A stretch of 64,000 nt of DNA from Catenuloplanes indicus (GTDB taxonomy: Bacteria > Actinomycetota > Actinomycetes > Mycobacteriales > Micromonosporaceae): the NCBI RefSeq assembly GCF_030813715.1, contig NZ_JAUSUZ010000001.1, forward strand, positions 5,456,001 to 5,520,000. Reading direction: 5' to 3'. Under the pieces are notes generated by a model. That model saw only the letters and a program-made list of their open reading frames with translations. It was not told the DNA's origin and did not search any database. This document shows, in pieces, positions 15,700 to 61,660 of this stretch. Position 1 is the stretch's first letter, and every line of letters starts with the position of its first letter. The position numbers were made by a program, and so were the translations under genes.

Positions 15700-16355
15700 C
15701 TGGGACCCCAACCCCAAAGCGGATCTTCCCGCTCCCGGCGGCTCCAATCCCGCATGCTCCCGGGCCCCGGTCGGCCGTGGCCGGCCTCCCTGCCGGTCCC
15801 GCTTCCCAAGACCACCCCTTCCCCGGCCACGCCGCCCACCCGCCATCACCATGCGTGACGCCCCACCCCTCCCGTCACCCCCAAACGATCTTCCCCGCCC
15901 CCTTCCACCCCACTCCCCACGCCGCTTTGCTCTGCTTACATGCTCGCGCCCCGTGGTGATTCGGACGCTATCCCCGATAGGGGCAGAAGGCCGGTTCTCC
16001 AGGCCAAAGACCGTTTCACGACGAAAGTCGCGGCCGTTTCGGGCGATTCGTCAATGTAAGCAGAGCAAAGGTGGGCAGGGAGAGGGCTGTGCGGGGTGTG
16101 GGGTTGCGCAGCGTGACGGGGCGCGGTGGAGAAAGCCGGGTGCGGGGGTCGCGGGGGTTGGGGTGAGTGGTGCGGGAATGGCTCCGTGGCGGTGGCCGGA
16201 GCCGAGCGTCAGCGGAGTCGGAGGCCGCCGCGAGGTTTGCCCGCGGGAGCGTGCGGGCCGGACCGGGCCGGAAGCGGGTAACGCACGAAGGGTTTGATCC
16301 TCGGGGGGGCGATCGGGATCTTTGGATTGTCATGCGGGGTGGGGAGGATGGGGGC
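15700..16355. other. Gene-free stretch holding inverted-repeat element A
   Basis: No credible gene is visible. The left part (about 15700-15924) is C-rich on the plus strand; the part right of the element (about 16071-16355) is G-rich. The only clear structure is element A. A purine-rich GGGGAGGATGGGGG run just before 16356 serves the next gene. Confidence 0.7.
15925..16070. repeat. Dispersed inverted-repeat element, copy A
   Basis: Perfect 17-base arms, CTTTGCTCTGCTTACAT at 15925-15941 and its complement at 16054-16070, flank a 112-base interior without a reading frame of note. The 14-base core TTTGCTCTGCTTAC is shared with four other copies in this window. It lies between two plus-strand genes, where base composition switches from C-rich to G-rich. 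Confidence 0.9.
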
Positions 16356-17231
16356 ATGACGAAGCTTGGGGCGGTGTTCGTGCCGCAGTGGGAGCCGGAG
16401 CGGCTGCGGGGCGTGGCGCGGGCGGCGGACGAGGCGGGGCTGGAGGAGCTGTGGCTCTGGGAGGACTGCTTCTTCGAGAGCGGGGTGGCGAGCGCGGCGG
16501 CGGCGCTGGCGTGGACGGAACGGCTGCGGGTGGTGGTGGGGCTACTGCCGGTGCCGCTGCGGAACGTGGCGGTGACCGCGATGGAGGCGGCGAACCTGGA
16601 GCGGATGTTCCCGGGGCGGTCGATGCTCGGGCTCGGGCACGGCGTGCAGGACTGGATGGGGCAGGCGGGGGCGCGGGCGGAGTCGCCGGTGACGCTGATG
16701 CGGGAGTACGCGACGGCGTTGCGCGCACTGCTCGGTGGCGAGAAGGTCACGGTGTCCGGGCGGTACGTCAACCTGGACGGCGTCGAGCTGGTCTGGAAGC
16801 CGGCCGGGGCGCCGCCGCTGCTGGTGGGCGCGTCGGGGCCGCGATCGCTGCGGCTGTGCGGTGAGGTCGGCGACGTGGTGATCCTGTCCGGCGGGACGAC
16901 GCCGGAGGGGACGGCGCGGGCCCGGGCGCTGGTCGAGGAGGGGCGCGCGGCGGCGGGGCGGACCGATCCGGTCACGCTGGCGGTGTACCTGATCGCGGCG
17001 ACCGGGGACGATCACCAGGAGCGGCTGCGGCGGGCGCACGCGACGTGGGGGATGACGGAACCGGTCGGGGACGTGACGGTCGGCGGTGACGCGGCGGCGA
17101 TCGCGGCGGGACTGCGGCGCTGGGCGGACGCGGGCGCGGACACGATCGTGCTGCAGCCGACCGAGGACGAGCCGTCGCCGGAGGACTTCGTCCGGTTCGT
17201 CGCGACCGAACTGCGGCCGCTGGTCAGCTGA
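16356..17231 (+). CDS. LLM-class (F420-dependent-type) oxidoreductase
   Basis: The 291-residue protein is a luciferase-like TIM barrel: GAVFVPQWEPERLRGVARAADEAGLEELWLWED, RLRVVVGLLPVPLRNVA, MFPGRSMLGLGHGVQDWM and PPLLVGASGPRSLRLCGEVGDVVIL. In actinobacteria such proteins usually use F420H2, less often FMN. The substrate is unknown. GGGGAGGATGGGGG ahead of the ATG supports the start. Codon third positions are almost all G in the first third and become balanced toward the end, which fits the skew around element A. It converges with the next gene with an 8-base overlap. Confidence 0.85.
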   Translation: MTKLGAVFVPQWEPERLRGVARAADEAGLEELWLWEDCFFESGVASAAAALAWTERLRVVVGLLPVPLRNVAVTAMEAANLERMFPGRSMLGLGHGVQDWMGQAGARAESPVTLMREYATALRALLGGEKVTVSGRYVNLDGVELVWKPAGAPPLLVGASGPRSLRLCGEVGDVVILSGGTTPEGTARARALVEEGRAAAGRTDPVTLAVYLIAATGDDHQERLRRAHATWGMTEPVGDVTVGGDAAAIAAGLRRWADAGADTIVLQPTEDEPSPEDFVRFVATELRPLVS

Positions 17232-18348
17232 TCGCGCTGAGCGGCAGCGTGTGCCAGACGATCTCGGTGTCGGCGCCGGTCGACCACCAGAGGACGCCGT
17301 TGCGGGACTGGATCATGCCGACTGCGTCGGCCACCCGAACCGTCTGCTGCTTCTCGATGTCGTAGACGTAGAGAATCTGGCTGCTGGTCGGGACGGTGTC
17401 CGGTCCCGCCTCGGTGAGCACCTCGAACCGGTCGAGCAGCGCCACGTCGGTGACCGCGGACATCGCGGCGCCACCGGCCATCCGGCGCCGGTCGGAGCCG
17501 TCCGGGCGCATCAGGTCGGTGCGGGCCGGTCCGTCCGCGGAGATGACCAGCACTCGGCACCAGACGCTGCCGCAGGTCACCAACTCGGTGCCGGTGGCGG
17601 CGACGGTCAGCTCCCGGTGATTCTTCCAGTCGCGGAGCTGGGGTAGCGACGCCTGGCCACTCTCCGCGCTGACCAGCCACGGGAACTTCGTCATCGCCCA
17701 CGCGCCGTCCTCGGTGCGGGTGGTGACGTCGCCACCGGCCAGCGGCACTGACCGGATCAGCGTGGCGGGCTCCTCACCGGGCGCGACCTCGGCCCAGTGC
17801 AGCGCGCCCTCGGCGATCAGCATGTCGTACTCGGAGTTGAAGAAGACCACGTCGCCGGTGTCCGCGGTGAGCCGGCGCGGCTCGCCGTCCGGCAGCCGCA
17901 TCGACCACATCTCGGTGCGCGTCACGTTGTCGTTCCCGGCCAGCGACTCGGCCCAGGCCAGCTCCGTGCCGTCGGTGGCGAAGCCGCCGAACTGCGGCGT
18001 GCCGGAGTAGGGGAGCCGGCGCAGCTCGCGCAGCGTGCCGTCACCGGCCCGGCGGACCAGCCGCATGAAGGCGCCGTCTGGGCTGGGTGCGGTGCCGATC
18101 GCGGTCTGCGCGTCCAGGAAGTACGACGGGGAGAACGCCGGGCCGTCCGACACGTTGCCGGGGAACTGGCCGATCGTCACGCCCGGCCAGGCCTCGGCCG
18201 GACCGATCGGGCCGGTCTGCGCCGGGCTCTGCGCCCGGTCCGCGTTGCCCGGCAGCACGATCAGCGCGACCGCGGCGAGCACCGCGACCAGCAGGCCGAT
18301 CTGCGCGAACCCGATCCGGCGGCGGGGCAGGGCAGTGCTCGCGGTCAT
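17224..18348 (-). CDS. Membrane-anchored beta-propeller-like protein
   Basis: The 374-residue protein has one N-terminal membrane helix (about 14-34, IGLLVAVLAAVALIVL) and an extracellular region of WD40/TolB-like repeats (FGGFATDGTELAWAES, DVVFFNSEYDMLIAEGALHWAE, ILYVYDIEKQQTVRVAD). No enzyme motif is visible, so a binding or sensing role is likely but unknown. It is coupled to the SerB-like gene upstream by an ATGA overlap. That overlap decides the start at 18348; the longer open frame is a shadow of the phosphatase gene. Confidence 0.7.
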   Translation of the reverse strand: MTASTALPRRRIGFAQIGLLVAVLAAVALIVLPGNADRAQSPAQTGPIGPAEAWPGVTIGQFPGNVSDGPAFSPSYFLDAQTAIGTAPSPDGAFMRLVRRAGDGTLRELRRLPYSGTPQFGGFATDGTELAWAESLAGNDNVTRTEMWSMRLPDGEPRRLTADTGDVVFFNSEYDMLIAEGALHWAEVAPGEEPATLIRSVPLAGGDVTTRTEDGAWAMTKFPWLVSAESGQASLPQLRDWKNHRELTVAATGTELVTCGSVWCRVLVISADGPARTDLMRPDGSDRRRMAGGAAMSAVTDVALLDRFEVLTEAGPDTVPTSSQILYVYDIEKQQTVRVADAVGMIQSRNGVLWWSTGADTEIVWHTLPLSAIS

Positions 18349-19241
18349 CGGGCCGCCCGGCGGCGCAGCGCGACGGTCAGCGCGGTGCCCGCGACCAGGC
18401 CGGTGGCGACCGCGACCGGCACCGCTATCCGCGCCGCCTTCCGCGCGGTCCGGAAGTCGCGGACCTGCCAGCCGCGGATCCGGGCGATCCGGCGCAGCGC
18501 CGCGTCCGGGTTCGTCGCGACGGCGTTGCCGACCGCGGTCAGCATCGGCATGTCGTTGGCCGAGTCGCTGTACGCGGTGCACCGCCTCAGGTCCAAGCCC
18601 TCGACCACGGCGAGCTGGCGTACCGCGTCCGCCTTGGCCGCACCGTGCATCATGTCGCCGACCAGCCGCCCGGTGTAGGCGCCGTCGACGATCTCCGCGA
18701 CGGTGCCTATCGCACCGGTCAGCCCGAGCCGCTGCGCGATCACCCGTCCTATCTCGATCGGCGCGGCGGTGACCAGCCAGACCCGCTCGCCCCCGTCCAG
18801 GTGGGTCCGGGCGAGCGCGTGCGTGCCCGGCCAGATGCGGGCCGCCATCGACTCCTCGAAGATTTCCTCGGCCAGGCGCTCGACGTCCTCGACCGTCCAG
18901 CCGTGGAAGAACGCCAGCGCGATGTCCTTGGCGCTGCTGATGTGCCCGCGGTGCTCGCTGAGCAGCCGGAACCGGGCCTGCTGCCAGGCGAACCGGGCGA
19001 CGTCCCGGGCGGTGAAGTAGCGCCGGGAGGCGAGGCCGCGGGCGAACCAGTACAGCGACGCGCCCTGCATCATCGTGTTGTCCAGGTCGAAGAAGGCGGC
19101 GGCGCTCGGGTCCGGCCGCGGTACCAGCGCGGCCTCCAGATCGGTCGAGACCCAGCCTGCGGTGTGACCCCGTGCGTCCGTGCTCACGGTCACCTTGCGC
19201 ATGCGCGGCACCAGGGCCCCCTTCTCGTAGCGATCGCTCAC
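18345..19241 (-). CDS. HAD-family phosphatase, SerB1-like
   Basis: The 298-residue protein has all HAD motifs of the SerB/IB subfamily: AFFDLDNTMMQGAS (nucleophile Asp in motif I), VWLVTAAPIEIGRVIA (motif II Thr), GAAKADAVRQL (motif III Lys) and YSDSANDMPML (motif IV). A cap domain lies between motifs I and II, and a hydrophobic C-terminal helix may anchor it to the membrane. It may dephosphorylate phosphoserine or a phospholipid. M. tuberculosis serB1 lies in the same neighbourhood. A GTG at 19211 is an alternative start. Confidence 0.85.
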   Translation of the reverse strand: MSDRYEKGALVPRMRKVTVSTDARGHTAGWVSTDLEAALVPRPDPSAAAFFDLDNTMMQGASLYWFARGLASRRYFTARDVARFAWQQARFRLLSEHRGHISSAKDIALAFFHGWTVEDVERLAEEIFEESMAARIWPGTHALARTHLDGGERVWLVTAAPIEIGRVIAQRLGLTGAIGTVAEIVDGAYTGRLVGDMMHGAAKADAVRQLAVVEGLDLRRCTAYSDSANDMPMLTAVGNAVATNPDAALRRIARIRGWQVRDFRTARKAARIAVPVAVATGLVAGTALTVALRRRAAR

Positions 19242-19299
19242 GCGAGCCTAGCCGCCGCCCACAGCGGATCGTGCGGATCCCGGGGGGTGAAAACGCGCC

Positions 19300-19333
19300 G
19301 AGGGCCGCCTGACCGGGTGGTCGGGCGGCCCTC
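19300..19333 (-). terminator. Strong hairpin after the bldN operon
   Basis: GAGGGCCGCC pairs with its complement and is extended inward by a T-G pair and GACC/GGTC, giving 15 pairs with a GGGT loop. It lies just past the stop of the anti-sigma-like gene on the minus strand. Confidence 0.65.
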
Positions 19334-19348
19334 GTGCGTCAGTGCGGA

Positions 19349-20512
19349 TCAGCCGCCGAGCAGGCCGCCGAGCAGGTCCTCCAGCACGTTCTTGCCGGCC
19401 GGCGTGGGGCTCGGCGCGGGCGCGCTGGGCTCCGGCTCCTCCAGGACCGGCTCGTCGGCGGTGCCGCTCGCGGGCTCGTCGGCCGCGGGGGCCGGCGTCG
19501 CGGTGGCCGGGGCGGGCGTGCCGGTGGCGGCCGGCGCACCGGTCGCGGGCGTGCCGCCGTCGGTCTCCCGGGCGGCCGGGACCTGATCCTGCGACCGCTG
19601 TCCGCCGCCGTGCACCGGCGTGCCGACCGGGTCGTCGACGGCGTCGCACAGGTTCGGCAGCGGGCCGAGCGCGTCGGTCCGCGGCAGCGCCTCCGCGGCC
19701 GGGCAGGCGAATCCGTCGGTCAGCGCGCGGGACCGCTTGTCGACGGAGTCGAGCAGGATCAGCGAGCCGAGCGCGCGGTCCCGGTTCGCCCCGGAGAGCG
19801 TGTCCAGGAAGCCGCCGATCTGCCGGCGCTGAGCGGTGACGAACGGGTCCACCGGCTGCAGCGGCGTGCCGCTGTGCTTCCGGGTCGCGGCGCCGGCCAG
19901 CAGCTTCACGCCCTCGCGGGTGTCCGCGTCCATGTCGTTGAGCACGGCCTCGAACCCGGCGGTGTCGCCGGTGACGGCCCGTGCCTCGCGCAGCCGGGTG
20001 GCCGCGAACTCCAGGTACAGCCGGCCCTTGTCCTCGTCCGAGCCGGCGAGTGCCAGCTGAGCCTGTTCCGAGTGCCGTTTGACGCTGTACAGCGCGTCGC
20101 CCGGGTTCGCGTCGGAGCTGGCCGCGGACATGCCGGAGACCACGACCGCGCCGGCGATCACGCCGATCGCGATCGCGCCGCGGGCACGCAGCCGGCGTCC
20201 GGCCGCGTCCGCGGCGGTGCCGGCCTTGATCAGGCGGGCGACCGGGCCGTCGGCGCTCTCCGGGTCCGTCGAGGTCACGCCGATGCCCTCGCGCTCCGCG
20301 GTCGCCATCAACATGGCACGCAGCCCGGTACGGAAGTCGGGGTCGATCTCGGGGCCCGGCGGTGCGCTGTTGAGCTCGTGGCCGAGCGCCACGAGTTCGG
20401 CCATCTGGTCATCGGACCGGGACCGGCCGTGGTGGCGCGGTCCGCCGTCGGCCTCGTCCAGCAGCTGGGCGAAGCGTTCGGCACGACGACGATCGAAGAT
20501 GACGTTTCTCAC
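19349..20512 (-). CDS. DUF5667 membrane protein, putative anti-sigma factor (RsbN-like)
   Basis: The roughly 387-residue protein has a cytoplasmic N-terminal part (about 1-115) resembling the sigma-binding region of DUF5667 proteins. A membrane helix follows (AIAIGVIAGAVVVSGMSA), then an extracellular helical region with SVKRHSEQAQLALAGSDEDKG and a long Pro/Ala/Thr-rich tail. In Streptomyces the gene next to bldN encodes the anti-sigma factor RsbN, and this gene follows a bldN-like gene. The role is inferred from that position. GTG 20512 is preferred over GTG 20521 because GGGAGG lies 8 bases upstream of it. Confidence 0.72.
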   Translation of the reverse strand: MRNVIFDRRRAERFAQLLDEADGGPRHHGRSRSDDQMAELVALGHELNSAPPGPEIDPDFRTGLRAMLMATAEREGIGVTSTDPESADGPVARLIKAGTAADAAGRRLRARGAIAIGVIAGAVVVSGMSAASSDANPGDALYSVKRHSEQAQLALAGSDEDKGRLYLEFAATRLREARAVTGDTAGFEAVLNDMDADTREGVKLLAGAATRKHSGTPLQPVDPFVTAQRRQIGGFLDTLSGANRDRALGSLILLDSVDKRSRALTDGFACPAAEALPRTDALGPLPNLCDAVDDPVGTPVHGGGQRSQDQVPAARETDGGTPATGAPAATGTPAPATATPAPAADEPASGTADEPVLEEPEPSAPAPSPTPAGKNVLEDLLGGLLGG

Positions 20513-20667
20513 CGAGGGCACCTCCCTTCAGTCGTCGCGGTTACCCGGACGGCGTCTGCACCGGCCAGGGCGACCGCGATGCGGGGAAATGCCGGAACCA
20601 CCATGGGTCGCACCGGGACAAACGGGGGACGGGCACGCGTGGTTACGGGACGATCCGGGGGAACGGG

Positions 20668-21543
20668 TCACGGTTGGAAGCCGTCCGGCAGGAGCCGGGC
20701 GAGCGTACGGACCGCACGGTACTGCAACGCCTTGATCGCGCCTTCGTTCTTGCCCATCGCCTGCGCGGTCTCCGCCACCGAGAAGCCCTGCAGGAAGCGG
20801 AGCACGATGCACTCCTGCTGTTCCGGGTTGAGCTGCTTGACCGCGGTGAGCAGGGCCACGTTCGTGATGTGGTCGACGACCGCGGCCTCCGGGCTGCCCT
20901 CCGGCCCGCGGTCCTCCCGGTCGGCGTCGAGCACGTCGCCGGTGGTCACCTCCAGCCGGTAGCGGCCGGACTTGAAGTGGTCGGCGACCAGGTTCCGGGC
21001 GATGGTGACCAGCCAGGCGCCGAGGTCGCGGCCCTGCCAGGTGAAGCTGCCGATCCGCTTGAGCGCGCGCAGGAACGTGTCCGACGTCAGGTCCTCGGCG
21101 AGCTGCCGGTTGCCGACCCGGAAGTAGATGAAGCGGAAGACGGTGTCCACGTACCGGTCGTAGATCAGGCCGAACGCCTCGGCCTCACCGGCCTGGGCGC
21201 GTTCGACCAGCGCCCACACCTCGGCGGCCGCGTCGGACGGGTCCGGCCGGGACGGGCGCTGCGGCGCGTCCGGCCCGGTGGCCGGCAGCGGCGCGGTATC
21301 CGTGGTGCGCTGCCCGGGTGGGGCCGGCTTGGTGGGCGCGCCGACCCGGCCGCCGTTGGTCGGCGTGCCGGTCCGTGGCGGTGCCTGGTTCGGCGGTGCG
21401 TTGGGCGGACGGTTCCGGGTGCGTTCGCTGCCGCTGCTCTCCGCGCGCGCCATCCCGATGGTCACGCCCAGGTGGTGGAGGCCGTCGTTGAGCGCGAGCC
21501 GGGCCGAAAAGACGATCCCGTCCGCGGCGTATCGGTACGTCAC
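20668..21543 (-). CDS. bldN: ECF sigma factor BldN-like (developmental)
   Basis: The 291-residue protein has an unusual N-terminal extension: a hydrophobic start, then a Pro/Thr/Arg-rich stretch to about residue 105. Sigma region 2 spans about 112-190 (GEAEAFGLIYDRYVDTVFRF, AEDLTSDTFLRALKRIGSF), and region 4 about 230-285 (QQECIVLRFLQGFSVAETAQAMGKNEGAIK). From memory, these blocks closely match BldN of Streptomyces, which is made as a pro-sigma with an N-terminal extension and drives aerial hypha and chaplin genes. GGAGGAGG six bases upstream supports the GTG start. The anti-sigma-like gene follows after 155 bases. Confidence 0.85.
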   Translation of the reverse strand: MTYRYAADGIVFSARLALNDGLHHLGVTIGMARAESSGSERTRNRPPNAPPNQAPPRTGTPTNGGRVGAPTKPAPPGQRTTDTAPLPATGPDAPQRPSRPDPSDAAAEVWALVERAQAGEAEAFGLIYDRYVDTVFRFIYFRVGNRQLAEDLTSDTFLRALKRIGSFTWQGRDLGAWLVTIARNLVADHFKSGRYRLEVTTGDVLDADREDRGPEGSPEAAVVDHITNVALLTAVKQLNPEQQECIVLRFLQGFSVAETAQAMGKNEGAIKALQYRAVRTLARLLPDGFQP

Positions 21544-21951
21544 TGGGCCTCCTCCGCGCAGCCCCGTACTGAGGGCATATCGGCGCATCCGGCGGGTAAG
21601 GGGGGTCGGCGATCCAGGAGCGGACACGCACCCATGAGGTGCAGTTGCGGTGCAAGATCGGGCACAACGGCCTCCTCTGGGTGAGGGGTGTCAACTCATA
21701 ACAAAAGGGGTGAGTCGACCCTTTGAGATGATAGGGCCTGCCTCACCCACACGTGTGGAGTCCGTTACATAGAGCAGGAGTATTTCGCGGAAACCGCCCT
21801 TCCGTGTCGCACACGGTGTGCGTCCGGCCAAACCATACGTGTGGTGACCAGGCGCTTACCTCGGGCTATGCCGCAACACGCCCGACCGCACTTGCACCGC
21901 GACACGCCGTGACGGGTGTCCACCGGGGGTCACTCTGGCACACTGGACCGG
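21544..21951. other. Divergent regulatory region with three palindromes
   Basis: This gene-free region upstream of bldN contains CCACACGTGTGG (21747-21758, perfect palindrome), CGCACACGGTGTGCG (21808-21822, perfect about a central G) and CCATACGTGTGG (21833-21844, imperfect). An AT-richer patch around 21700-21740 may hold the bldN promoter. No gene is seen. Confidence 0.5.
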
Positions 21952-22200
21952 GTGCAGGAGCCCCGTCTGACCCTCATCACCCGGCCCGGCTGCCACCTGT
22001 GCGAGGTGGCCAAGGAAGCGGTCGGCCGGGTGGTCGCCGCGACCGGTGACCGCTACGTCGAGATCGACGTGGAAAGCGACATCGAGCTGGAGCGGGAGTA
22101 CGGCGAACGCGTCCCCGTGGTGCTGCTGGACGGCCGCGAGCACGGCTACTGGCGGGTCGAGGAGGCCCGTCTGCTGGCCGATCTGGCGCAGCCCCGCTGA
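21952..22200 (+). CDS. Glutaredoxin-like protein (DUF836/Rv0508-like)
   Basis: The 82-residue thioredoxin-fold protein has the redox motif RPGCHLCEVAKE (CxxC near residue 14), cis-Pro loop RVPVVLLDG and C-terminal helix RVEEARLLADL. It probably reduces or senses disulphides in the cytosol; the partner is unknown. M. tuberculosis Rv0508 lies just upstream of hemA, and this gene stands a few genes before hemA here too. The GTG start gives the normal short N terminus of the family. Confidence 0.85.
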   Translation: MQEPRLTLITRPGCHLCEVAKEAVGRVVAATGDRYVEIDVESDIELEREYGERVPVVLLDGREHGYWRVEEARLLADLAQPR

Positions 22201-22204
22201 GCGT

Positions 22205-31415: not shown

Positions 31416-31982
31416 CCGCTCCCCGCTCCCCGCCGCGGTCGCCCATCGACCTCCTCGCCCGGCGCCGCTCCTCGCTCGCCCCGGCCTCCGGCCCCGGCGC
31501 CGCCCCCTCCCGCCCCGGCTCTTTGCCCCGGGTGCCGCCCTCGCCGAGCCGACCGCGCCTCCACCTTCTCGCTCCGCCCGCCCGCCCGCGGAATTGATCT
31601 GACGTCGCGCCTTGCCAGATCTTGGGCTCGATCAACTCTCGCTCCACCGGCATTCAATCGACGGATAGCCATGCGCTACAGCATGATCGTGACCGATTGG
31701 ACCCGACTTCAGTGCCGCCGATCCGGCCCAATTCGGTTACTCCAAGTAGTTACCCATGCTGAGGCCGCCTTGGCTCTCCCGCAACCTTTGCTCTGCTTAC
31801 ATTGGCGGCAGCTTGTATTTTCCCTGTTCATTACGTCAATTAGGGTCGGGAGTGTGCATGTAAGCAGAGCAAAGGTTGCGTGGGGGTGGGGTGGGGAGAG
31901 TGGAGGGAGTTACGGAGAGTTGTGGGGTGTGCGGAGTGGGCGGGGTGGATGGGGAGGGGTGGGGTGGGGCAGAGTGCGCGGC
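31349..31982. other. Gene-free, repeat-rich stretch
   Basis: The region holds the tandem repeat, a C-rich segment (to about 31600), a less biased segment, inverted-repeat element B and then a strongly G-rich tract up to the XRE gene. No credible gene was found on either strand. Confidence 0.7.
31781..31879. repeat. Dispersed inverted-repeat element, copy B
   Basis: This copy has the longest arms, 22 perfect bases (31781-31802 and 31858-31879), containing the shared core TTTGCTCTGCTTAC followed by AT (ATG on the right). The interior is 55 bases and AT-richer than its surroundings. It separates a very C-rich side (padR) from a very G-rich side (XRE gene). Confidence 0.92.
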
Positions 31983-42120: not shown

Positions 42121-42487
42121 CCCGTCCCGGGTGCGCGGCGAGCGGGCTGAGGGCGCCGATGCCGGATATTTACCGCTATCACACCATCGACCGCAGTTAG
42201 TCAGGCTTCCACCACGTACTCCGGCACGCTTTGCTCTGCTTACCTGGCACAAATCCGGCGGATCGGCGCCGCAGATGTGCCGGTCGCCGACAGGTAAGCA
42301 GAGCAAAGGCGGCGCGGAGATCGACGGTTGTTTTCGCGGTTTGCGCCAAATGTTCAGGTGGACGGTTCTCTTGCGGGCGGGTGACTCGCGCAAACTTAGG
42401 ATCCGCTCAGGTGGCCGACGGGTAGCCGGGGCGGCGATGCCGGATCGCCCGCGGTCCCCCCGCGGGCCCACCGCTCAGGAGCCCTGG
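42121..42487. other. Gene-free stretch with inverted-repeat element C
   Basis: The stretch contains element C (42229-42308), a moderately AT-rich lead-in, and AGGAG just before the phospholipase gene. No gene is seen. Confidence 0.65.
42229..42308. repeat. Dispersed inverted-repeat element, copy C
   Basis: Perfect 18-base arms (CTTTGCTCTGCTTACCTG at 42229-42246 and complement at 42291-42308) surround a 44-base interior. The interior contains its own smaller dyad GCACA...TGTGC. The inner arm ends in CCTG/CAGG, whereas copies A and B have CAT/ATG. This is the shortest copy. Confidence 0.92.
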
Positions 42488-48875: not shown

Positions 48876-49380
48876 TTTCCTGGCCTTCGCTCGTGCCTCA
48901 GGCCCGGGCGCCCTCCCCGCGCCCTCACACGAGCGGTCGCGTTCCACCCATGATCCAAAATCCCTCGGCAAAGCCGTCCTTCCCGCGGGCCTTTGCTCTG
49001 CTTACCTGACTCAAGGTTGTGGGTGCGTGACGCTCCCTGGAGCCCGGCTGCGTCTGCTGACCAGGTCGGATGCGTGAATTCTGGGTCGGTTGGCGTTGCT
49101 GGTCCCGGATCGGTGCGAATCGTCGGCCGGGCGCGGCGGGTTCGGGGCGACTCGCGTGCCGGGAGCAACGCGGAGGTGCCGGGGGTTGCGTCGATCCGCC
49201 GGCGTGGGGTGCACGAGCGGCAGGGACGGTCCTGATAGGCCCGCCAGCAGGTAATACGTGACCACGCCGGCCAAATGTGAGCCATGTAAGCAGAGCAAAT
49301 CGGGCGCGCGTGGGGGTGGGGGTGGAGGCCGGCGAGCCGCCGCCGGTGGGTGGGCCGGGCGGCGGCGGGGTGCCGGTGGG
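48876..49380. other. Gene-free stretch with inverted-repeat element D
   Basis: The region separates convergent genes. Composition goes from C-rich to G-rich across element D (48991-49299). A very G-rich run (GTGGGGGTGGGGGTGG) follows the right arm. No credible gene is present. Confidence 0.65.
48991..49299. repeat. Dispersed inverted-repeat element, copy D (long, mixed type)
   Basis: The left arm CTTTGCTCTGCTTACCTG (48991-49008) is of the CCTG type, while the right arm (49284-49299) ends in ATG as in copies A and B. Only the 14-base core pairs. The interior is about 275 bases, longer than in other copies, which suggests a composite. Confidence 0.85.
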
Positions 49381-53883: not shown

Positions 53884-55248
53884 ATGAGGAAAAGACTGAG
53901 TGTGGTCGGCGCTACACTGCTCGCGCTGGTCGTCTCCATGGTGGTCTTCACGGTTCCGGCGCACGCGGCCGCCGGTTTCACGGTCAGTGGCGGCCGGCTG
54001 CTCGACGCCAACGGCAACGCGTTCGTGATGCGCGGCATCAACCACGCGCACACCTGGTACCCGGCGCAGACCGGTTCGTTCGCGAACATCAAGGCGACCG
54101 GCGCCAACACGGTACGGGTGGTGCTGGCCAGCGGTCAGCGCTGGACCAGGAACGAGGCGTCCGACGTCGCCGGCGTGATCGGCTTGTGCAGGGCGAACAG
54201 GCTGATCTGCGTGCTGGAGGCGCACGACACCACCGGGTACGGCGAGCAGGCCGGCGCGGCCACGCTGGCCCAGGCGGTCGACTACTGGATCAGCGTGCAG
54301 AGCGCATTGACCGGTCAGGAGCGCTACGTCATCCTGAACATCGGCAACGAGCCGTACGGCAACCAGAACTACCAGACCTGGGCCGCGGACACCGCCACCG
54401 CGATCCAGCGGCTGCGCACGGCCGGCTTCGACCACACGATCATGGTGGACGCGCCCAACTGGGGTCAGGACTGGACGTTCACCATGCGGGACAACGCGGC
54501 CACGGTGTTCACCGCGGACCCGGACCGGAACACGGTGTTCTCCATCCACATGTACGGCGTCTTCGACACGGCCGCCGAGGTCACCGACTACCTGGGCCGG
54601 TTCGTCAGCGCCGGGCTGCCGATCGTGGTCGGCGAGTTCGGTGACATGCACTCGGACGGCAACCCGGACGAGGACGCGATCATGGCCACCGCGCAGGCGC
54701 AGCGGATCGGCTACCTGGGCTGGTCATGGAGTGGCAACGGCGGCGGCGTCGAGTACCTGGACATCGTGCAGAACTTCAACCCGGCGAGCCTGAGCACCTG
54801 GGGCCAGCGGCTGATCAACGGGCCGGACGGGATCCGGGCCACGTCCGTCGAGGCGTCCGTCTACGGCGGCGGCACCGGCAGCCCGACGCCGACCCGGACG
54901 GCCGGCCCCACGCCGACCGGCAGCCCGGCGCCGTCACCGACCGGCGGCACCGCCGGCTGCACCGCGACGTACACGGTCGGCAGCCAGTGGAGCGGCGGCT
55001 TCCAGGGCGACGTCAAGGTCTCCGCCGGCCGTGCGATCGACGGCTGGACCGTCACCTGGACGTTCGGCTCCGGCCAGGCCGTGTCGAACGCCTGGAACGC
55101 CACGGTGACGTCCAGTGGCTCCACGGTCACGGCGAAGAACGTCTCGTACAACGGGAAGCTCTCCGCCGGCGGCAGCACGAGCTTCGGCTTCCTCGGCTCG
55201 TGGACCGGGAGCAACCCGGTGCCGGCAGTGACCTGCACCGCCTCGTAA
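53884..55248 (+). CDS. Secreted beta-mannanase: GH5 with C-terminal CBM2
   Basis: The 454-residue enzyme has a signal peptide (LLALVVSMVVFTVPAHAA) and a GH5 domain (about 32-325) very like Streptomyces mannanase: VMRGINHAHTWYPAQTGS, catalytic Glu156 in NIGNEPYG and Glu251 in VGEFGD. A Thr/Pro/Ser linker (about 325-355) and a CBM2 cellulose-binding module (CTATYTVGSQWSGGFQGDVKV, ending in Cys) follow. It should cut mannan in plant cell walls. GAGGTGGG precedes the ATG. The gene lies alone between the O-methyltransferase and htrA, where related genomes have a sigE-type gene pair. Confidence 0.92.
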   Translation: MRKRLSVVGATLLALVVSMVVFTVPAHAAAGFTVSGGRLLDANGNAFVMRGINHAHTWYPAQTGSFANIKATGANTVRVVLASGQRWTRNEASDVAGVIGLCRANRLICVLEAHDTTGYGEQAGAATLAQAVDYWISVQSALTGQERYVILNIGNEPYGNQNYQTWAADTATAIQRLRTAGFDHTIMVDAPNWGQDWTFTMRDNAATVFTADPDRNTVFSIHMYGVFDTAAEVTDYLGRFVSAGLPIVVGEFGDMHSDGNPDEDAIMATAQAQRIGYLGWSWSGNGGGVEYLDIVQNFNPASLSTWGQRLINGPDGIRATSVEASVYGGGTGSPTPTRTAGPTPTGSPAPSPTGGTAGCTATYTVGSQWSGGFQGDVKVSAGRAIDGWTVTWTFGSGQAVSNAWNATVTSSGSTVTAKNVSYNGKLSAGGSTSFGFLGSWTGSNPVPAVTCTAS

Positions 55249-55402
55249 CGCCTGGTCAGCCAGGCCGTGCGACGCTGGGGAGCCGTCCGGGCGGCGGCTC
55301 CCCGTTTCGCGTCCGCGCGAGCGTGCGGAACGAGCTATGAGTGACCGCGCGGGATCCGTGTAATCCTGGACGGGTAGTTCCGGCGAGATACGGAGGCACC
55401 AC

Positions 55403-56662
55403 GTGACCGACGGCGGGATCCCGCCCCAGCCGGGCGATCGCGGCACCTTGGCCCCGCCCGGTTCCGCGTGGTGGTCCGACGCCATGTCCGATCCCTGGCG
55501 TAACCCCTACACGCAGGCGGCCGTCGTGCTCCCGGCCGAACCGCCCGGTGACGGCGACCCCGAGCCGGTCACCGACCCGGATGCGCCACGCGCCCGGGTC
55601 TGGCGTCCCGTCGTGCTGCTGTGCGTGATCAGCGCGGTGCTGGCGGGCACGCTCGGCGGCGCGGTCGGCTATGCGATGGCGGTGCGCGGCGGCGTCGCGG
55701 GCGGTGGACTCGCGGCCGGCGCGGGCGCGCTCGACCCGCCGGCCGCCGCGGTGCGCCCGCCGGAGTCGCTGGCCGGCGTGGCGGAACGGGTCAGCCCGAG
55801 CGTGGTCACGATCCGGGTCAGCGGCCCGCAGGGCGGTGTCGGTTCCGGCTTCGTGGTCAGCCAGGACGGCTACGTGATCACCAACCATCACGTGGTCGAG
55901 GGCGCCGCACGGACCGCGCTGGCCGTGGTCTTCGCGGACGGCACCGCGACACCGGCCACGCTGGTCGGCCAGGACCCGGAGTCGGATCTCGCGGTGCTGA
56001 AGGTGGAGAAGGAGGGCCTGATCGCGGTCGACCTCGGCGACTCCGACGCGGTCGCGGTCGGCGACCCGCTGCTGGCGTTCGGCTCGCCGCTGGCGCTGGC
56101 GAACACGGTCACCCAGGGCATCGTCAGCGCGCTGGACCGGACCATCCAGTCCGACCAGAGCGGGCAGGTGCGCTACTACGCGGCGATCCAGACCGATGCC
56201 GCGATCAACCAGGGCAACTCCGGCGGCCCGCTGGTCGACGCGGCCGGCCGGGTGGTCGGCGTGAACGCGGTGATCAAGTCGGTGACCGGTGACCAGCAGA
56301 CCGCCGGGAACATCGGCATCGCCTTCGCCATCCCAATCAACCAGGCGAAACGCGTCAGCCAGGAGATCATCGCGACCGGCAAGGCGCGGCGCACCGTGAT
56401 CGGCGCCGAGGTCGGCAACGCGTCCGCCGGGCTGACCGGCGGCGTGCGGCTGGAGACGGTCCAGGCGAACGGGCCGGCTTCCGCGGCCGGGCTGCGCGCC
56501 GGTGACGTGGTCACCCGCCTCGACCACCACCCGCTCAACGACGCCATCGACCTGGTGGCGCTGGTCCGCAAGTTCGCGCCCGGCTCGGTCGTCACGGTGG
56601 AGTACCGTCGCGGCTCGACCGCGCAGACCGCCTCGGTGACCTTGGCCGCTGACGCGCAATGA
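55403..56662 (+). CDS. HtrA-like membrane-anchored serine protease with PDZ
   Basis: The 419-residue protein has a Pro-rich cytoplasmic tail, one membrane helix (VVLLCVISAVLAGTLGGAVGY, about 72-93), a trypsin-like domain and a C-terminal PDZ domain. The catalytic triad is visible as His163 in TNHHVV, Asp195 in SDLAVLK and Ser273 in GNSGGPL. It probably degrades or refolds damaged envelope proteins and takes part in stress signalling. In mycobacteria htrA follows sigE-rseA; here no sigma gene precedes it. A TatB gene follows. Confidence 0.93.
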   Translation: MTDGGIPPQPGDRGTLAPPGSAWWSDAMSDPWRNPYTQAAVVLPAEPPGDGDPEPVTDPDAPRARVWRPVVLLCVISAVLAGTLGGAVGYAMAVRGGVAGGGLAAGAGALDPPAAAVRPPESLAGVAERVSPSVVTIRVSGPQGGVGSGFVVSQDGYVITNHHVVEGAARTALAVVFADGTATPATLVGQDPESDLAVLKVEKEGLIAVDLGDSDAVAVGDPLLAFGSPLALANTVTQGIVSALDRTIQSDQSGQVRYYAAIQTDAAINQGNSGGPLVDAAGRVVGVNAVIKSVTGDQQTAGNIGIAFAIPINQAKRVSQEIIATGKARRTVIGAEVGNASAGLTGGVRLETVQANGPASAAGLRAGDVVTRLDHHPLNDAIDLVALVRKFAPGSVVTVEYRRGSTAQTASVTLAADAQ

Positions 56663-56667
56663 ACCTT

Positions 56668-56694
56668 CGCCGGCCCCTGCCGTTGGGGCCGGCG
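56668..56694 (+). terminator. Hairpin after htrA-like gene
   Basis: CGCCGGCCCC and its complement form 10 pairs around a 7-base TGCCGTT loop, five bases after the stop. Confidence 0.55.
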
Positions 56695-56734
56695 CGTGCG
56701 TACAGTTGCCGGGGATGGTCGTGTAGGAGGCACT

Positions 56735-57154
56735 GTGTTCGAGAACCTGAACTGGTGGGAGATCGGCGGGCTCATCCTGCTCGCGCTGCTGATCTTCGGT
56801 GATCGCCTGCCGCAGGTGATCCAGGACGGCCTGCGCATGATCCGCAACCTGCGCAACATGGCACGGGACGCCACCGGCGACCTGAGCCGTGAGCTCGGCA
56901 CCGACATCCAGCTCGAGGATCTGCACCCCAAGGCCTTCATCCGCAAGCACATCCTCAGCGAGGAGGACGAGGCCGCGCTGCGCAACCCGATCCAGGGCCT
57001 GGTCGAGTCGGTGAAGAAGGACGTCACCGGCATCAACGACGAGCTCAAGGACGTCGCCGCCGCCGTCGACCCGCGCCGCCCCGACCCGGCCCCCGCGGTT
57101 CCGGCGGCCACCCCGGCCAACAAGCCGGCCGCGTTCGACCTCGACGCCACCTAG
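56735..57154 (+). CDS. tatB: Twin-arginine translocase subunit TatB
   Basis: The 139-residue protein starts FENLNWWEIGGLILLALLIFGDRLPQVI, the TatA/B membrane helix followed by the GDRLPxxI hinge, then an amphipathic helix (GLRMIRNLRNMARDATGDL) and a charged, Pro/Ala-rich tail. TatB helps recognise folded Tat substrates at the membrane. The GTG start follows TAGGAGGCACT, a good ribosome-binding site. It matches M. tuberculosis tatB next to htrA. Confidence 0.92.
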   Translation: MFENLNWWEIGGLILLALLIFGDRLPQVIQDGLRMIRNLRNMARDATGDLSRELGTDIQLEDLHPKAFIRKHILSEEDEAALRNPIQGLVESVKKDVTGINDELKDVAAAVDPRRPDPAPAVPAATPANKPAAFDLDAT

Positions 57155-57164
57155 GAACAAGGAC

Positions 57165-57212
57165 CACAGAAAAAGCACCGGCGGGTACGTACCCGCCGGT
57201 GCTTTTTCTGTG
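57165..57212. terminator. Perfect 48-base palindromic bidirectional terminator
   Basis: The palindrome is exact over 48 bases, with A-rich and T-rich ends (AGAAAAAGC / GCTTTTTCT) around a GC-rich stem. It gives U tracts in both directions between convergent tatB and mrp. Confidence 0.9.
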
Positions 57213-57222
57213 ATCGAAGAGG

Positions 57223-58368
57223 TCAGCGGCCGCTCGGCGTCAGGCCCAGCGGCTTGCCGAGCAGCGACTCCCGGCGCACCGCGAGCTTCGCCGCGACGGC
57301 CTGCAGCGCGGCGGCGGCCGGTGCGTCCGGCGCGGAGACGACGATCGGAGCGCCACTGTCCCCGGCCTCGCGCACGCGCGTGTCCAGCGGGATCTGGCCG
57401 AGCAGCGGCACCTGCGCGCCGACCGTCCGGGTCAGCGACTCGGCCACGGCCGCGCCGCCACCGGAGCCGAAGATCTCCATCCGCTCGCCGGTCGGCAGCT
57501 CCAGCCAGGACATGTTCTCCACCACGCCGACCAGCCGCTGGTGGGTCTGCAGCGCGATCGCGCCGGCCCGCTCCGCCACCTCTGCGGCCGCGGTCTGCGG
57601 CGTGGTGACGACCAGGATCTCCGCGTTCGGCAGCAGCTGGGCGAGCGAGATCGCCACGTCGCCGGTGCCCGGCGGCAGGTCGAGCAGCAGCACGTCCAGA
57701 TCGCCCCAGTAGACGTCGGCGAGGAACTGCTCCAGCGCGCGGTGCAGCATCGGCCCGCGCCAGACCACGGCCGCGTTCCCGGCCGTGAACATGCCGATTG
57801 AGATGACCTTCACTCCGTGCGCCTGCGGCGGCATGATCATGTCTTCGACGCGGGTCGGCTTGCCGTCCGCGCCGAGCATGCGCGGCACCGAGTGCCCGTA
57901 GATGTCCGCGTCGATCACGCCCACGCTCAGGCCCTTGGCGGCGAGCGCGGCGGCCAGGTTGACCGTGACGCTGGACTTGCCGACACCGCCCTTGCCGCTG
58001 GCCACCGCGTAGACGCGGGTGCGCGAGCCGGGCTGCGCGAACGGGATGACCGCCTGCTGCTGGCCACCGGCGCCGCGCAGCTTCTGCTGGAGCTCCTGGC
58101 GCTGCTCGGTGCTCATCACGCCGAAGTCGATCGCGACGGACGTCACGCCCGGCACCGCGCCGACCGCGGTGGTGATGTCGCTGGTCAGCTTGTCCCGCAG
58201 TGGACAGCCGGAGACGGTGAGCAGGATGCCCACCCGGACCTGGCCGGAGCCGTCGATCTCCAGCGAGCCGACCATGCCGAGGTCGGTGATCGGACGGCGG
58301 ATCTCCGGATCGTCGACCGTGGCCAGCGCTGCCCGGACGGCGTCTTCGACGGTGGTGACTGCAGACAT
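57223..58368 (-). CDS. mrp: Mrp/NBP35-type Fe-S carrier ATPase
   Basis: The 381-residue protein has an N-terminal DUF59/MIP18 domain (AALATVDDPEIRRPITDLGMVGSLEI) and the ParA-like ATPase domain with AVASGKGGVGKSSVTVNLA, VIDADIYGHSVPRML and LLLDLPPGTGDVAI. The usual C-terminal CxxC of Fe-S scaffolds is not visible in the last part (RMEIFGSGGGAAVAE occupies the place). M. tuberculosis Mrp (Rv1229c) sits in the same place. It converges with tatB. Confidence 0.92.
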   Translation of the reverse strand: MSAVTTVEDAVRAALATVDDPEIRRPITDLGMVGSLEIDGSGQVRVGILLTVSGCPLRDKLTSDITTAVGAVPGVTSVAIDFGVMSTEQRQELQQKLRGAGGQQQAVIPFAQPGSRTRVYAVASGKGGVGKSSVTVNLAAALAAKGLSVGVIDADIYGHSVPRMLGADGKPTRVEDMIMPPQAHGVKVISIGMFTAGNAAVVWRGPMLHRALEQFLADVYWGDLDVLLLDLPPGTGDVAISLAQLLPNAEILVVTTPQTAAAEVAERAGAIALQTHQRLVGVVENMSWLELPTGERMEIFGSGGGAAVAESLTRTVGAQVPLLGQIPLDTRVREAGDSGAPIVVSAPDAPAAAALQAVAAKLAVRRESLLGKPLGLTPSGR

Positions 58369-58593
58369 GTCGCCAATGCTACGTCCCGGTCACGCGCACC
58401 CGACCGGCCGCCGGTCCGAGACGTTGCTTACGCACCGAATCAGACATTCTAGTGCGATAAGCCGATAAATGGTCCTTGTTCCCGATTATCCGGATCCGGA
58501 CTGGACGAGTGCGTGGCCGGGGTGTCACGATCACAGAGTCGGCCGCGCGCCCAGCCCCTTGGGGCGCGCGGCTCAACACCGTCCTGACCTGCG

Positions 58594-59238
58594 TCAGAGT
58601 GGTTCCACGTGCTCCGGGTCATATGCGTCGGCGTCGATTGGTTCGTCCAGCTTGGCCGGCTTGCGCTGCTTCGCCGCCTTCTTCTCCGCCTTGTCGGCCG
58701 CCCGGTCGTTCGCCCGGTCGTAGGCCTTCTCGGCCGCCTTCTCCGCCCGCCGCTGCCGCCGGTTCGCCTGCTCGTCCAGCTCCTCGGCCAGCCGGGCGAG
58801 CTCGGACCGGACGAAGTCGCGGGTGGTCACGTCGCCCAGCGCGACCCGCAGCGACGCGATCTCACGCGCCAGGTATTCGGTGTCCGCCTTCTGCATCACG
58901 GCCCGGCGCCGGTCCTCCTCGGCCGCGATCCGGTCCCGGTCCGCCTGCCGGTTCTGCGCCAGCAGGATCAGCGGCGCCGCGTAGGACGCCTGCAACGACA
59001 AGATCAAGGTCAGGAACGTGAACGTGTACGGGTCGAACCGCAGCGACGGCGGGGCCAGCACGTTCCACGCGATCCAGAGCAGGATCACGATGGTCATGTA
59101 GACCAGGAACTTCGCGGTCCCCATGTACCGCGCGATGCTCTCCGACCACTGCCCGAACGCCTCCGGGTCGAACTTCGGCAGCCGGATCCGCCCCGGCTCC
59201 TGCGGCTGGTCGAGCCGGTCACGCCGTCTCTCGGCCAC
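58594..59238 (-). CDS. DUF1003 membrane protein
   Basis: The 214-residue protein has two central membrane helices (TAKFLVYMTIVILLWIAWNVL and FTFLTLILSLQASYAAPLILLAQNRQ, the DUF1003 pattern), then a charged coiled-coil helix and an Ala/Lys-rich tail. The function is unknown. Its gene overlaps the MgtE-N/CBS gene by 20 bases, in the same order as around Rv1231c/Rv1232c of M. tuberculosis, so a joint role in divalent-cation handling is possible. Confidence 0.85.
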   Translation of the reverse strand: MAERRRDRLDQPQEPGRIRLPKFDPEAFGQWSESIARYMGTAKFLVYMTIVILLWIAWNVLAPPSLRFDPYTFTFLTLILSLQASYAAPLILLAQNRQADRDRIAAEEDRRRAVMQKADTEYLAREIASLRVALGDVTTRDFVRSELARLAEELDEQANRRQRRAEKAAEKAYDRANDRAADKAEKKAAKQRKPAKLDEPIDADAYDPEHVEPL

Positions 59239-60505
59239 CGTCGCCTCCCGTCACGCCCTGGGCCGGACCGGTCTCGCGCTCACGCCAGTCCCGCGGCAGC
59301 GAGTGGTCCAGCACGTCGTCGACCGTGATCGCCCCGACCAGCCGCTGCTGCTCGTCCACCACGGGCATCGCGACCAGGTCGTACGTCGCCATCCGCCGGG
59401 TCACCTCGGACAGCGCGCTCTCCGGGCTCAGCGGCGCGATGTCGTTGTCCACCACCCCGCCCAGGATCCGCGACGGCGGCTCGCGCAGCAGCCGCTGGAA
59501 GAACACCACGCCCAGGTACTTCCCGGTCGGCGTCGCCATCGGGCCGCGCGTGACGAACACCTGCGCCGCGATCGCCGGGGACAGCTCCGGCTCCCGGATC
59601 CGGGCCAGCGCCTCCGCGACCGTGGCGTCCGGCGGCATGATCACCGGCTCGGACGTCATCACCGCACCGGCCGTGCCCTCGCCGTACGCCATCAGCTGCC
59701 GGACCGGGTCGGCCTCGCCCGGCTCCATCAGGTCCAGCAGTTCCTCCTGCTCCGGCGGCGGCAGCTCGGCCAGCAGGTCGGCCGCGTCGTCCGGATCCAT
59801 CTCCTCCAGGATGTGCGCCGCCCGCTCCCGGTCCAGCGCGGACACGATCTCCACCTGGTCGTGCTCGGGCAGCTCACCGAGCACGTCCGCGAGCCGCTCG
59901 TCGTCCAGCGCGGCCGCGACCTCGTTACGCCGGGTGTCCGGCAGATCCTGCAGCGCGTTCGCCAGGTCGGCCGGGCGCATCTTCTCCAGCATCGCCAGCA
60001 TGGTCGCGGTCGCGTGCGCGCCGCTCTGCGGGATCAGGCCGCGTACGTCGTCCCAGTCGACCTGCTCCAGGTGGATGCGGCGGGCCAGCCGGATCGTCTG
60101 GTCCCGCACCGCCACCCGGCTCAGCGTCCACTCGCCCAGCCGGTTCGCGTCCATCGCCACGTCCACCACGACCGCGTGCCGGCCCTCCGGCGCGATCGTC
60201 ACCGGGCGGCCCAGCAGCTCGCGCAGGATCAGCAGCTCGCTCGCCCGCTTCTCGAACCGGCGCAGATTCAGCGTGCCGGTGCCGAGCAGCACGCTGTCGG
60301 TGTCGATGCCGGTGATCCGGCTGATCGGCAGGAAGATCCGGCGGCGCACCGGCACCTCGGCGACCAGGCCGACCACCTGAGGCGGGCGGACCGAGGTGCG
60401 CAGCCGGGCGACCACGTCCCGGACCCGGCCGACCGGGTCACCGTTCGGATCGAAGACGGGAAGGCCGCCCAGCCGAGCCAGGTACACCCGCGTCGCCGTC
60501 GTCAC
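59219..60505 (-). CDS. Soluble MgtE N-domain plus CBS protein (Rv1232c-like)
   Basis: The protein (about 428 residues) has PRC-barrel-like segments (FDPNGDPVGRVRDVVARLR), the MgtE N-terminal superhelical domain (MLEKMRPADLANALQDLPDT and related repeats to residue 290), and a CBS pair with DATVAEALARI and AMPVVDEQQRLVGAITVDDVLD. The MgtE membrane part is missing. MgtE proteins import magnesium and the N/CBS part senses it; this one could be a sensor or partner. GTG 60505 is preferred over GTG 60511 because TAGGCT lies 6 bases upstream on the minus strand (60517-60512). Confidence 0.85.
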   Translation of the reverse strand: MTTATRVYLARLGGLPVFDPNGDPVGRVRDVVARLRTSVRPPQVVGLVAEVPVRRRIFLPISRITGIDTDSVLLGTGTLNLRRFEKRASELLILRELLGRPVTIAPEGRHAVVVDVAMDANRLGEWTLSRVAVRDQTIRLARRIHLEQVDWDDVRGLIPQSGAHATATMLAMLEKMRPADLANALQDLPDTRRNEVAAALDDERLADVLGELPEHDQVEIVSALDRERAAHILEEMDPDDAADLLAELPPPEQEELLDLMEPGEADPVRQLMAYGEGTAGAVMTSEPVIMPPDATVAEALARIREPELSPAIAAQVFVTRGPMATPTGKYLGVVFFQRLLREPPSRILGGVVDNDIAPLSPESALSEVTRRMATYDLVAMPVVDEQQRLVGAITVDDVLDHSLPRDWRERETGPAQGVTGGDGGRETA

Positions 60506-60559
60506 GCCCACAGCCTAATGAAAGGTGCGCCGCACGGCGCGCCGGTGATCGAAACGCCT

Positions 60560-60565
60560 TAGCGT
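60560..60565 (+). promoter_or_regulatory. -10 box for leaderless phzF-like mRNA
   Basis: TAGCGT fits TANNNT and lies 6 bases before the ATG. It is divergent from the TAGGCT box of the MgtE-N/CBS gene. Confidence 0.45.
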
Positions 60566-60571
60566 CAGCCT

Positions 60572-61450
60572 ATGACGACAGTGCCGTACGAGATCGTGGA
60601 CGTCTTCACCGACCGCCCGTTTGCCGGCAACCCGCTCGCCGTGGTCTTCGATGCCGAGCTGCTCGGCACCGCGCAGATGGCCGCGCTGGCCCGCGAGTTC
60701 AACCTGTCCGAGACGGTCTTCGTGCTGCCGCCGTCCGCGGCGGCACCGGAGGCGACGTACCGTGCCCGGATCTTCACCCCCGCGTCCGAGCTGCCGTTCG
60801 CCGGTCACCCGAGCGTGGGTGCCGCGGTCACCGTGACGCGCCGCGGCCTGGCCGCCCCCGGCACGCTCCGCCAGGAGTGCGGCGCCGGCGTGCTGCCGAT
60901 CGAGGTGACCGCACACGGTGAGGCCCGGCTGACCGGCGGCACCCCGACGCTCGGCGCGGACCGCGACCCGGCGCCACTGCTGGAGATCGCCGGCCTGTCC
61001 GCCGCCGACCTGGCCGGGCCGGCACCACGACCGGCCGGTTGCGGCCTGGAACACCTCTACCTGGCCGTACGCCCGGACGCGGTGTCCCGGGCCACGCTGG
61101 ACGCGGCCGCCGCCGCCCGGCACGGCGTGCCGAAGCAGACCGTGTTCGCCTGGAACGCCGCCACGCACACCGCGCACCTGCGGATGTTCGCACCCGGCGT
61201 CGGCGTCGCCGAGGACCCGGCGACCGGCTCCGCCGCGCTCGGCCTGGGCGTCTGGCTCACCGGCGCCGGCCTCCTTCCCGCCGACGGCACCACCGCCTAC
61301 ACGATCCATCAGGGCGCCGAGATCCACCGTCCGTCCACGCTGGACTGCACGGTCACCGCCGCCGCCGGCACCGCCGTCTCCGCCACGGTCGCCGGCCACG
61401 TCGTCGAGATCGCCAACGGCAAGATCGCCGTCCCGCCCTTCGTGGGCTGA
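60572..61450 (+). CDS. PhzF-family isomerase/epimerase
   Basis: The 292-residue protein shows the PhzF pattern: [34 protein letters not shown] (catalytic Glu region), [20 protein letters not shown] and [24 protein letters not shown]. PhzF catalyses a double-bond shift in phenazine synthesis, but most family members have other, unknown substrates. No phenazine genes are nearby. Third codon positions become C-rich toward the end, next to element E. Confidence 0.85.
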
Positions 61451-61458
61451 CCACCTCG

Positions 61459-61660
61459 CTTTGCTCTGCTTACCTACGCGATGCCGCCCGATTCGGAGCG
61501 ATTTACCGGTCCGGCGAATTGCCGCTTTTGGTCAGGTAAGCAGAGCAAAAGCGCGTCGGTGCGGCATCCGGAGATGCCGCGCGATGCCGCCGGAAAATAC
61601 GGAATATGAGCGATTTGCGGCGGTGGATTCGCGGCTTTTGGTGATGTAAGCAGAGCAAAG
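61459..61660. repeat. Dispersed inverted-repeat element, copy E, duplicated right arm
   Basis: The left arm CTTTGCTCTGCTTACCT is at 61459-61475. The first right arm (61534-61551) is of the AGG type and matches it apart from one extra A. A second right arm (61644-61660) is of the ATG type, 110 bases further on. Both right arms follow a similar lead-in containing CTTTTGGT, so a segment of about 110 bases appears duplicated and diverged. Confidence 0.88.

Follow-up and report, generated by a model that had tools for sequence, protein, structure and literature searches.

Facing 14-bp arms between the genes of Catenuloplanes: a conserved, regionally concentrated family and its possible reading as paired protein-binding sites

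Introduction

Five inverted repeats lie dispersed between the genes of a 64-kb stretch of the Catenuloplanes indicus genome (C1:5456001-5520000 of the 9.25-Mb genome G000; hereafter the window), and all of their arms carry the same 14-bp sequence, TTTGCTCTGCTTAC. The locus thereby raises the question of what these arms are, and what might read them. The existence of the arm family and of selection on its arms is solid. Its interpretation, as judged from sequence patterns, is more tentative: the arms may be facing binding sites on DNA for a candidate sequence-specific protein, an explanation to which we give slightly less than even confidence, and the main rival to which is a hairpin-type element at the 3' ends of genes.

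The arm family in the window and in the genome

The window contains eleven matches to the 14-bp arm at up to three mismatches, and all eleven are exact. The same search in 100 dinucleotide shuffles of the window gave a mean of 0.74 matches and a largest count of 5, with none of the shuffles reaching 11. Each of the five groups has its plus-strand arms on the left and its minus-strand arms on the right, that is, facing one another. A preliminary description of these repeats, made from the letters of the window, is borne out in its coordinates, interior lengths and counts, as well as in its statements that the core is unchanged in every arm, that the copies contain no transposase, and that they are not clustered regularly interspaced short palindromic repeats (CRISPR). 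A search of the window against Rfam, which covers membership of CRISPR and of the RNAs listed there, returned no gathering-level match, and a tRNA search returned no match.

Across the whole C. indicus genome, 38 exact arms (21 plus, 17 minus) occupy 23 places, against none for the reversed pattern used as a control, and the pattern TTTGCTCTGCTTACNTG at up to three mismatches yields 74 matches against 17 control matches. Exact arms are present in all five Catenuloplanes genomes examined (38, 67, 33, 96 and 35). In C. indicus, copies of a parS-like palindrome, GTTTCACGTGAAAC, are grouped at 4.912-4.940 Mb, and this cluster is taken as the origin region. Thirteen of the 23 places are crowded into 0.41 Mb, at distances of 0.39-0.79 Mb from the parS cluster and all to the same side of it. 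In G001, a second Catenuloplanes genome of 8.9 Mb, a stretch of 0.40 Mb, at 0.45-0.83 Mb from the origin region, accounts for 17 of 28 places. The corresponding stretches hold 23/38 of the exact arms in G000, 37/67 in G001, 49/96 in G003 and 30/35 in G004. The family is regional in Catenuloplanes and not spread evenly over the genome. The earlier expectation that five copies in the window imply many in the genome was only partly right, given 23 places in 9.2 Mb, more than half of them in that one stretch. One 17-mer is common to G000:C1:9174809, near the end of C1, and G000:C2:5893, and may represent a repeat in both contigs.

Conservation between Catenuloplanes species

The comparison of orthologous gaps that the preliminary description had proposed used reciprocal best genes as anchors (260-336 per species pair, with a median identity of 91-96%). 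Among the 14 element-bearing gaps of G000, 12/14 are filled in G003, 12/14 in G004 and 12/12 testable ones in G001; three window-region gaps were dropped where a species lacked coverage, and G001 was tested only for the 12 gaps inside the stretch compared. Some gaps are filled in other species and empty in G000, gene pairs 139/140 and 156/157 being examples. The korB locus was compared over the 1,400 bp after korB in 30 genomes: G000, G001, G003 and G004 have a facing pair there, and G002 lacks it; none of the 25 genomes of other genera has one, the sole trace being a lone core with a single mismatch in G043.

Arms were aligned between species without gaps, anchored where both species have an arm with at most two mismatches, a procedure that favours the arm somewhat. 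In five species pairs, with 18-22 arms each, identity is 0.97-1.00 at arm positions 0-13, as against 0.33-0.47 at positions 40-21 before the arm, 0.60-0.68 at positions 14-16, and 0.32-0.51 inside, at positions 34-49. With arms 97-100% identical beside flanks and interiors at 32-68%, selection acts on the arms and not on the interiors. The consensus over 181 arms is C-TTTGCTCTGCTTAC-[CA]TG-NN-C-[GA]AA, with a C/T-rich stretch ahead of it, and the extended arm consensus is given as CTTTGCTCTGCTTAC-MTG-NN-C-RAA. The interiors had been described as unrelated, which is only partly right: it holds between copies, but in one gap, aligned by eye, G000 and G004 have clearly similar interiors, and next to the arm there is a weak subterminal motif. 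In 57 innermost pairs, positions 14 and 19 show agreement between the two arms above the shuffled level, and positions 20 and 26 show it weakly; elsewhere outside the core the arms do not covary. What is maintained is therefore not a continuous stem.

Spacing of the facing arms

The innermost facing spacings group at 61-66, 72-77, 83-87, 94-100 and 104-110 bp and beyond. For 35 events of at most 160 bp, collapsed per orthologous gap, a period of 11.6 bp fits best (p 0.0003); the corresponding values are 11.5 bp for a 34-event set over the same range and 11.2 bp for 29 short ones (p 0.002). These periodicity tests drop spacings above 160 bp (above 130 bp for arms in the same direction), and a value of 26 was dropped from the 34-event set onward. 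In order to guard against the mode near 75 bp alone making the result, the phase was also checked without the main mode at 70-79 bp: the 22 events outside it keep its phase (jitter p 0.0008, uniform p 0.0036), as do 30 events when scattered loci are added (p 0.0006 and 0.0012, respectively). Moreover, the shifts between orthologous spacings amount to roughly one or two helical turns (64/73/75/64, 94/84/96/96 and 84/86/83/104). There is moderate to good evidence that the facing arms are helically phased, on a ladder of about 11 bp. Such a ladder is what proteins on one face of the DNA would give, and apparent repeats of about 11 bp are typical of supercoiled DNA in looping experiments.

Gene gaps and arm order

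Genes were called with our own codon-model caller rather than taken from a curated annotation, a simpler caller having been used earlier. The preliminary description had placed all copies between genes, and indeed, of the 14 clusters at 5.30-5.68 Mb in G000, none shares more than 25 bp with a called gene; a count over these and 18 clusters of G001 likewise gave no overlap. The codon-model caller assigns the 14 clusters to 9 convergent, 5 tandem and 0 divergent gaps, and the simpler caller made 11 of them convergent; both agree on window elements 1, 4 and 5 and disagree on elements 2 and 3 (Table 1). Over 86 clusters in four species, with orthologues counted and genes scoring 25 or less omitted, 56 gaps are convergent, 29 tandem and 1 divergent, as compared with 110, 327 and 217 gaps of at least 80 bp in those regions. 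Arms can start 3-12 bp past a stop codon, and one convergent gap in G001 consists wholly of an element, 6 and 9 bp from the stops. In other genera, 9/43 clusters overlap an open reading frame (simpler caller), one of the nine being a gene between distant arms.

Steps between neighbouring arms run from plus to minus 69 times and from minus to plus 4 times. The 86 clusters comprise 62 in which plus arms precede minus arms, 4 concatenated elements, 13 single arms, 4 plus runs and 3 minus runs, so that both orientations occur in 66 and 20 are one-sided; stacks reach eight arms. It is the single arm, rather than a pair-bounded element, that is invariant. A core that was rare elsewhere in the genome, or that mostly lacked a partner arm, would have spoken against the element family first proposed, and neither is the case. 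What stands is a real intergenic family of facing repeats; what does not is a uniform, genome-wide family of pair-bounded elements. At L315:1913-2093, six left cores follow one another in a row with a 21-bp period, TTTGCTCTGCTTGCgcggggc, and then a facing right arm, a tandem expansion of single arms.

Table 1. The five elements of the window, with their arms, flanking genes and orthologous gaps (strands in brackets; positions are those of the window).
Element	Position	Arms	Spacing (bp)	Gap	Left flank	Right flank	Orthologous gaps
1	15925..16070	15926-15939 (+), 16056-16069 (-)	130	tandem	acyltransferase gene, PF01553 (+)	luciferase-like monooxygenase gene, PF00296 (+)	filled in G001, G003, G004
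2	31781..31879	31787-31800 (+), 31860-31873 (-)	73		PadR-like regulator gene (+)	uncertain: weak open reading frame (+) or 1082-aa gene (-), depending on gene caller	filled in G001, G003, G004; spacings 73, 73, 72
3	42229..42308	42230-42243 (+), 42294-42307 (-)	64		913-925-aa cyclase/MalT-TPR-like gene (+)	187-aa open reading frame (+), then korB (-)	filled in G001 (73), G003 (75), G004 (64); not in G002
4	48991..49299	48992-49005 (+), 49286-49299 (-)	294	convergent	186-aa gene without Pfam match (+)	enoyl-CoA hydratase, PF00378 (-)	spacings 77, 281, 313
5	61459..61660	61460-61473 (+), 61536-61549 (-), 61646-61659 (-)		convergent	PhzC/PhzF-like gene (+), stop 10 bp ahead of first arm	169-aa gene without Pfam match (-)	filled in G001, G003, G004

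Distribution outside the genus

Related arms with genome-specific "dialects" are found in part of the Micromonosporaceae. The exact 14-mer occurs in 34/200 genomes of this family, a 23-mer at up to three mismatches in 34/120, compact facing pairs in 18/91, and the pattern TTTGCTCTGCNNNCNNNNNCG in 49/150, with control matches in 8 genomes. Among the 23-mer matches, the first ten letters of the arm are mostly intact and the next four vary (TTAC, TCAC, TTCC, ATCC, ACCC and others). Most compact elements (34 of 42 distinct ones) measure 65-68 or 56 bp; within a genome they share their arms and differ in their loops, and one element may mix dialects, as at G020:C32:20533 (TTCC and ACCC).

The compact-spacing pattern, which also misses spacings of the window type, was found in 0/243 genomes of the class outside the Micromonosporaceae. 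In a genome collection, at least 118 stretches contain the 14-mer, and the seven with two matches, among the matches listed, all belong to the Micromonosporaceae. A 67-bp facing pair with the core TTTGCTCTGC lies in a convergent gap of Actinoallomurus soli, of the Thermomonosporaceae (L054:4993-5059), and confinement to the Micromonosporaceae is therefore claimed less strongly. At least 120 stretches of viral contigs contain the 14-mer, with one match each among the matches listed, as expected by chance. A literature search gave no description of the arm family among the matches listed, which is a weak negative; a literature match to the 14-mer was an unrelated plant paper.

Discussion

The exact letters of the arm are kept, rather than its pairing or the interiors, which argues for a reader of sequence; the spacing rule argues for DNA rather than RNA as what is read; and the facing order, together with the stacks, argues for contact between bound proteins. 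We infer from this that a protein reads the DNA and that facing sites are bridged. Each 14-bp arm would then be a DNA site for a putative sequence-specific protein, and facing arms, whether single or stacked, would be spaced so that the bound proteins share one face of the helix. Proteins on two arms or stacks could thereby touch, closing a small loop or a short filament between genes. The purpose is a matter of guesswork: the concentration of the arms at one distance from the origin suits a chromosome-domain organiser in Catenuloplanes, while their position past gene ends suits a roadblock or insulator between neighbouring transcription units, or a site that needs to stay clear of promoters. 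Bacteria seldom have strongly conserved non-coding DNA for which no reader is known.

Several observations weigh against paired protein-binding sites. The eight scattered loci alone are not significantly phased (p 0.09 and 0.17), the best period shifts with the range considered, from 10.6 bp (up to 115 bp) to 11.4 bp (up to 160 bp), and counting each distinct spacing only once gives p 0.27 and 0.028 for these two ranges. Spacings between arms in the same direction are borderline (p 0.02 to 0.055), and large spacings, of 263-570 bp, occur. Outside Catenuloplanes the concentration is much weaker, the compact elements of five genomes of other genera showing only a mild tendency to lie near the origin (pooled n=40, p 0.0009; p between 0.0016 and 0.20 for single genomes). 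Of the informative one-sided elements that lie outside convergent gaps, only 5/9 are oriented as a directional 3'-end signal would require, so that such a signal is not supported and direction is not settled by them. No arm-binding protein has been identified, the only protein family searched for being Y1_Tnp. Lastly, the compact elements of other genera are near-perfect hairpins, which also favours the strongest rival: that the arms form RNA or cruciform hairpins at gene ends, acting as bidirectional terminators or 3'-end stabilisers, with the foot of the stem read by a factor.

That rival we consider possible, although rather unlikely. The predominance of convergent gaps and the closeness of the arms to stop codons agree with it, and three terminator-like scan matches lie at or in element 5, as separate small hairpins. 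Four window elements have folding z-scores between -5.1 and -7.7, and one compact element has -11.3, values that any facing repeat would give. However, little of the pairing beyond the arm is preserved in Catenuloplanes, six compact elements of 67 bp are mostly unpaired at positions 14-18, and it is the exact letters that are conserved rather than the pairing. The elements have interiors of 44-280 bp in place of the short loop of an intrinsic terminator with its G+C-rich stem, they lack a T-tract, and their outer ends, TTT...AAA, are the reverse of those of a bidirectional terminator. Furthermore, korB carries its own hairpin past its stop, an ordinary bidirectional terminator is found nearby in the window, and hairpins would leave both the regional concentration and the 11-bp ladder unexplained. 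The ordinary terminator, at 57166-57211, has a 20-pair stem, a 6-base loop, an A-tract before and a T-tract after it, and lies in a convergent gap (plus gene to 57154, minus gene from 57223), in contrast to the elements.

Mobile-repeat readings fit worse. The arms might belong to mobile, perhaps domesticated, palindromes, such as miniature inverted-repeat transposable elements (MITEs), repetitive extragenic palindromes (REPs) with their bacterial interspersed mosaic elements (BIMEs), or solitary ends of an element like Tn7 or Mu, with its arrayed transposase sites, but this we regard as improbable. Their distribution is patchy, inner arms are genome-specific, other genera use different gaps at the one locus compared, and the inward-facing stacks of sites are reminiscent of Tn7/Mu ends. 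Yet the same gaps are held vertically, with selection on the arms, and one compact element has no match in plasmid or phage collections. Interiors differ among window copies and between orthologues, and loops differ within genomes, so that the shared interior of a MITE is lacking; for target-site duplications or an autonomous partner, the flanks were viewed by eye only. Three long-spaced pairs, in which open reading frames were inspected without a family search, have no evident transposase: L347 and L349 contain no evident gene, and L348, from an Actinoplanes genome, holds between its distant left and right arms an open reading frame (L348:2450-3361) with a putative Fic-like motif. The RAYT transposase that accompanies REPs (PF01797, Y1_Tnp) is present in 4/23 element-bearing genomes overall and 1/7 without elements, and in 0/5 Catenuloplanes genomes, in line with the preliminary view that these are not REPs. 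According to PMC1525189, REPs and BIMEs are extragenic and often lie between convergent genes. The arms share this position and a palindromic, multiple arrangement; unlike REPs, they have no Y1_Tnp beside them in Catenuloplanes, their kept unit is a non-palindromic single arm, and their positions are common to species.

Far less probable still is that the arms serve as words for DNA uptake or recognition, in dialects like those of the Neisseriaceae. Those words, as described in PMC3630211, are strict within a genome, have lineage variants and form inverted pairs at gene ends, with 1543-3770 copies in the species quoted. The arms resemble them in having one word per genome, family dialects and inverted pairs near gene ends, but amount to 33-96 exact words per genome (five genomes) and not to the hundreds or thousands, also within genes, of an uptake sequence; none lies inside genes in the G000 and G001 regions, and they form stacks, follow the 11-bp ladder and are regionally concentrated.

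For paired protein-binding sites, the closest mechanical comparison is with phased operator pairs, as a likeness in how the arms might work and not as membership. Operator pairs of the lac repressor loop DNA with a spacing dependence on the helical turn. The arms are likewise paired, with spacings that follow the helical turn; unlike such operators, they do not lie at promoters, they number dozens of copies, and they are positioned at gene ends. From parS and from matS/MatP, too, short sites are known that cluster in one part of the chromosome and persist from species to species. The arms share these properties, but are asymmetric, occur in facing pairs and stacks, and occupy a region that lies to one side of the parS cluster, next to it rather than at it; no protein is known for them, and MatP was not searched for.

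A more ambitious proposal, and a doubtful one, is that the arms belong to a lineage-specific chromosome-organising or transcription-insulating system, in which a putative protein family would co-evolve with the 10-bp core and the genome-specific 4-bp dialect, bridge sites that face one another with helical phasing at gene ends, and mark one Catenuloplanes domain 0.4-0.8 Mb from the origin. With the sites, the partners, the spacing rule, and species with and without arms all at hand, the reader protein can be fished directly. Should the elements instead be a class of terminator, it would be an unusual, sequence-specific one; if bridging within one domain is true, they would represent a new actinobacterial way to organise chromosomes or to separate convergent transcription.

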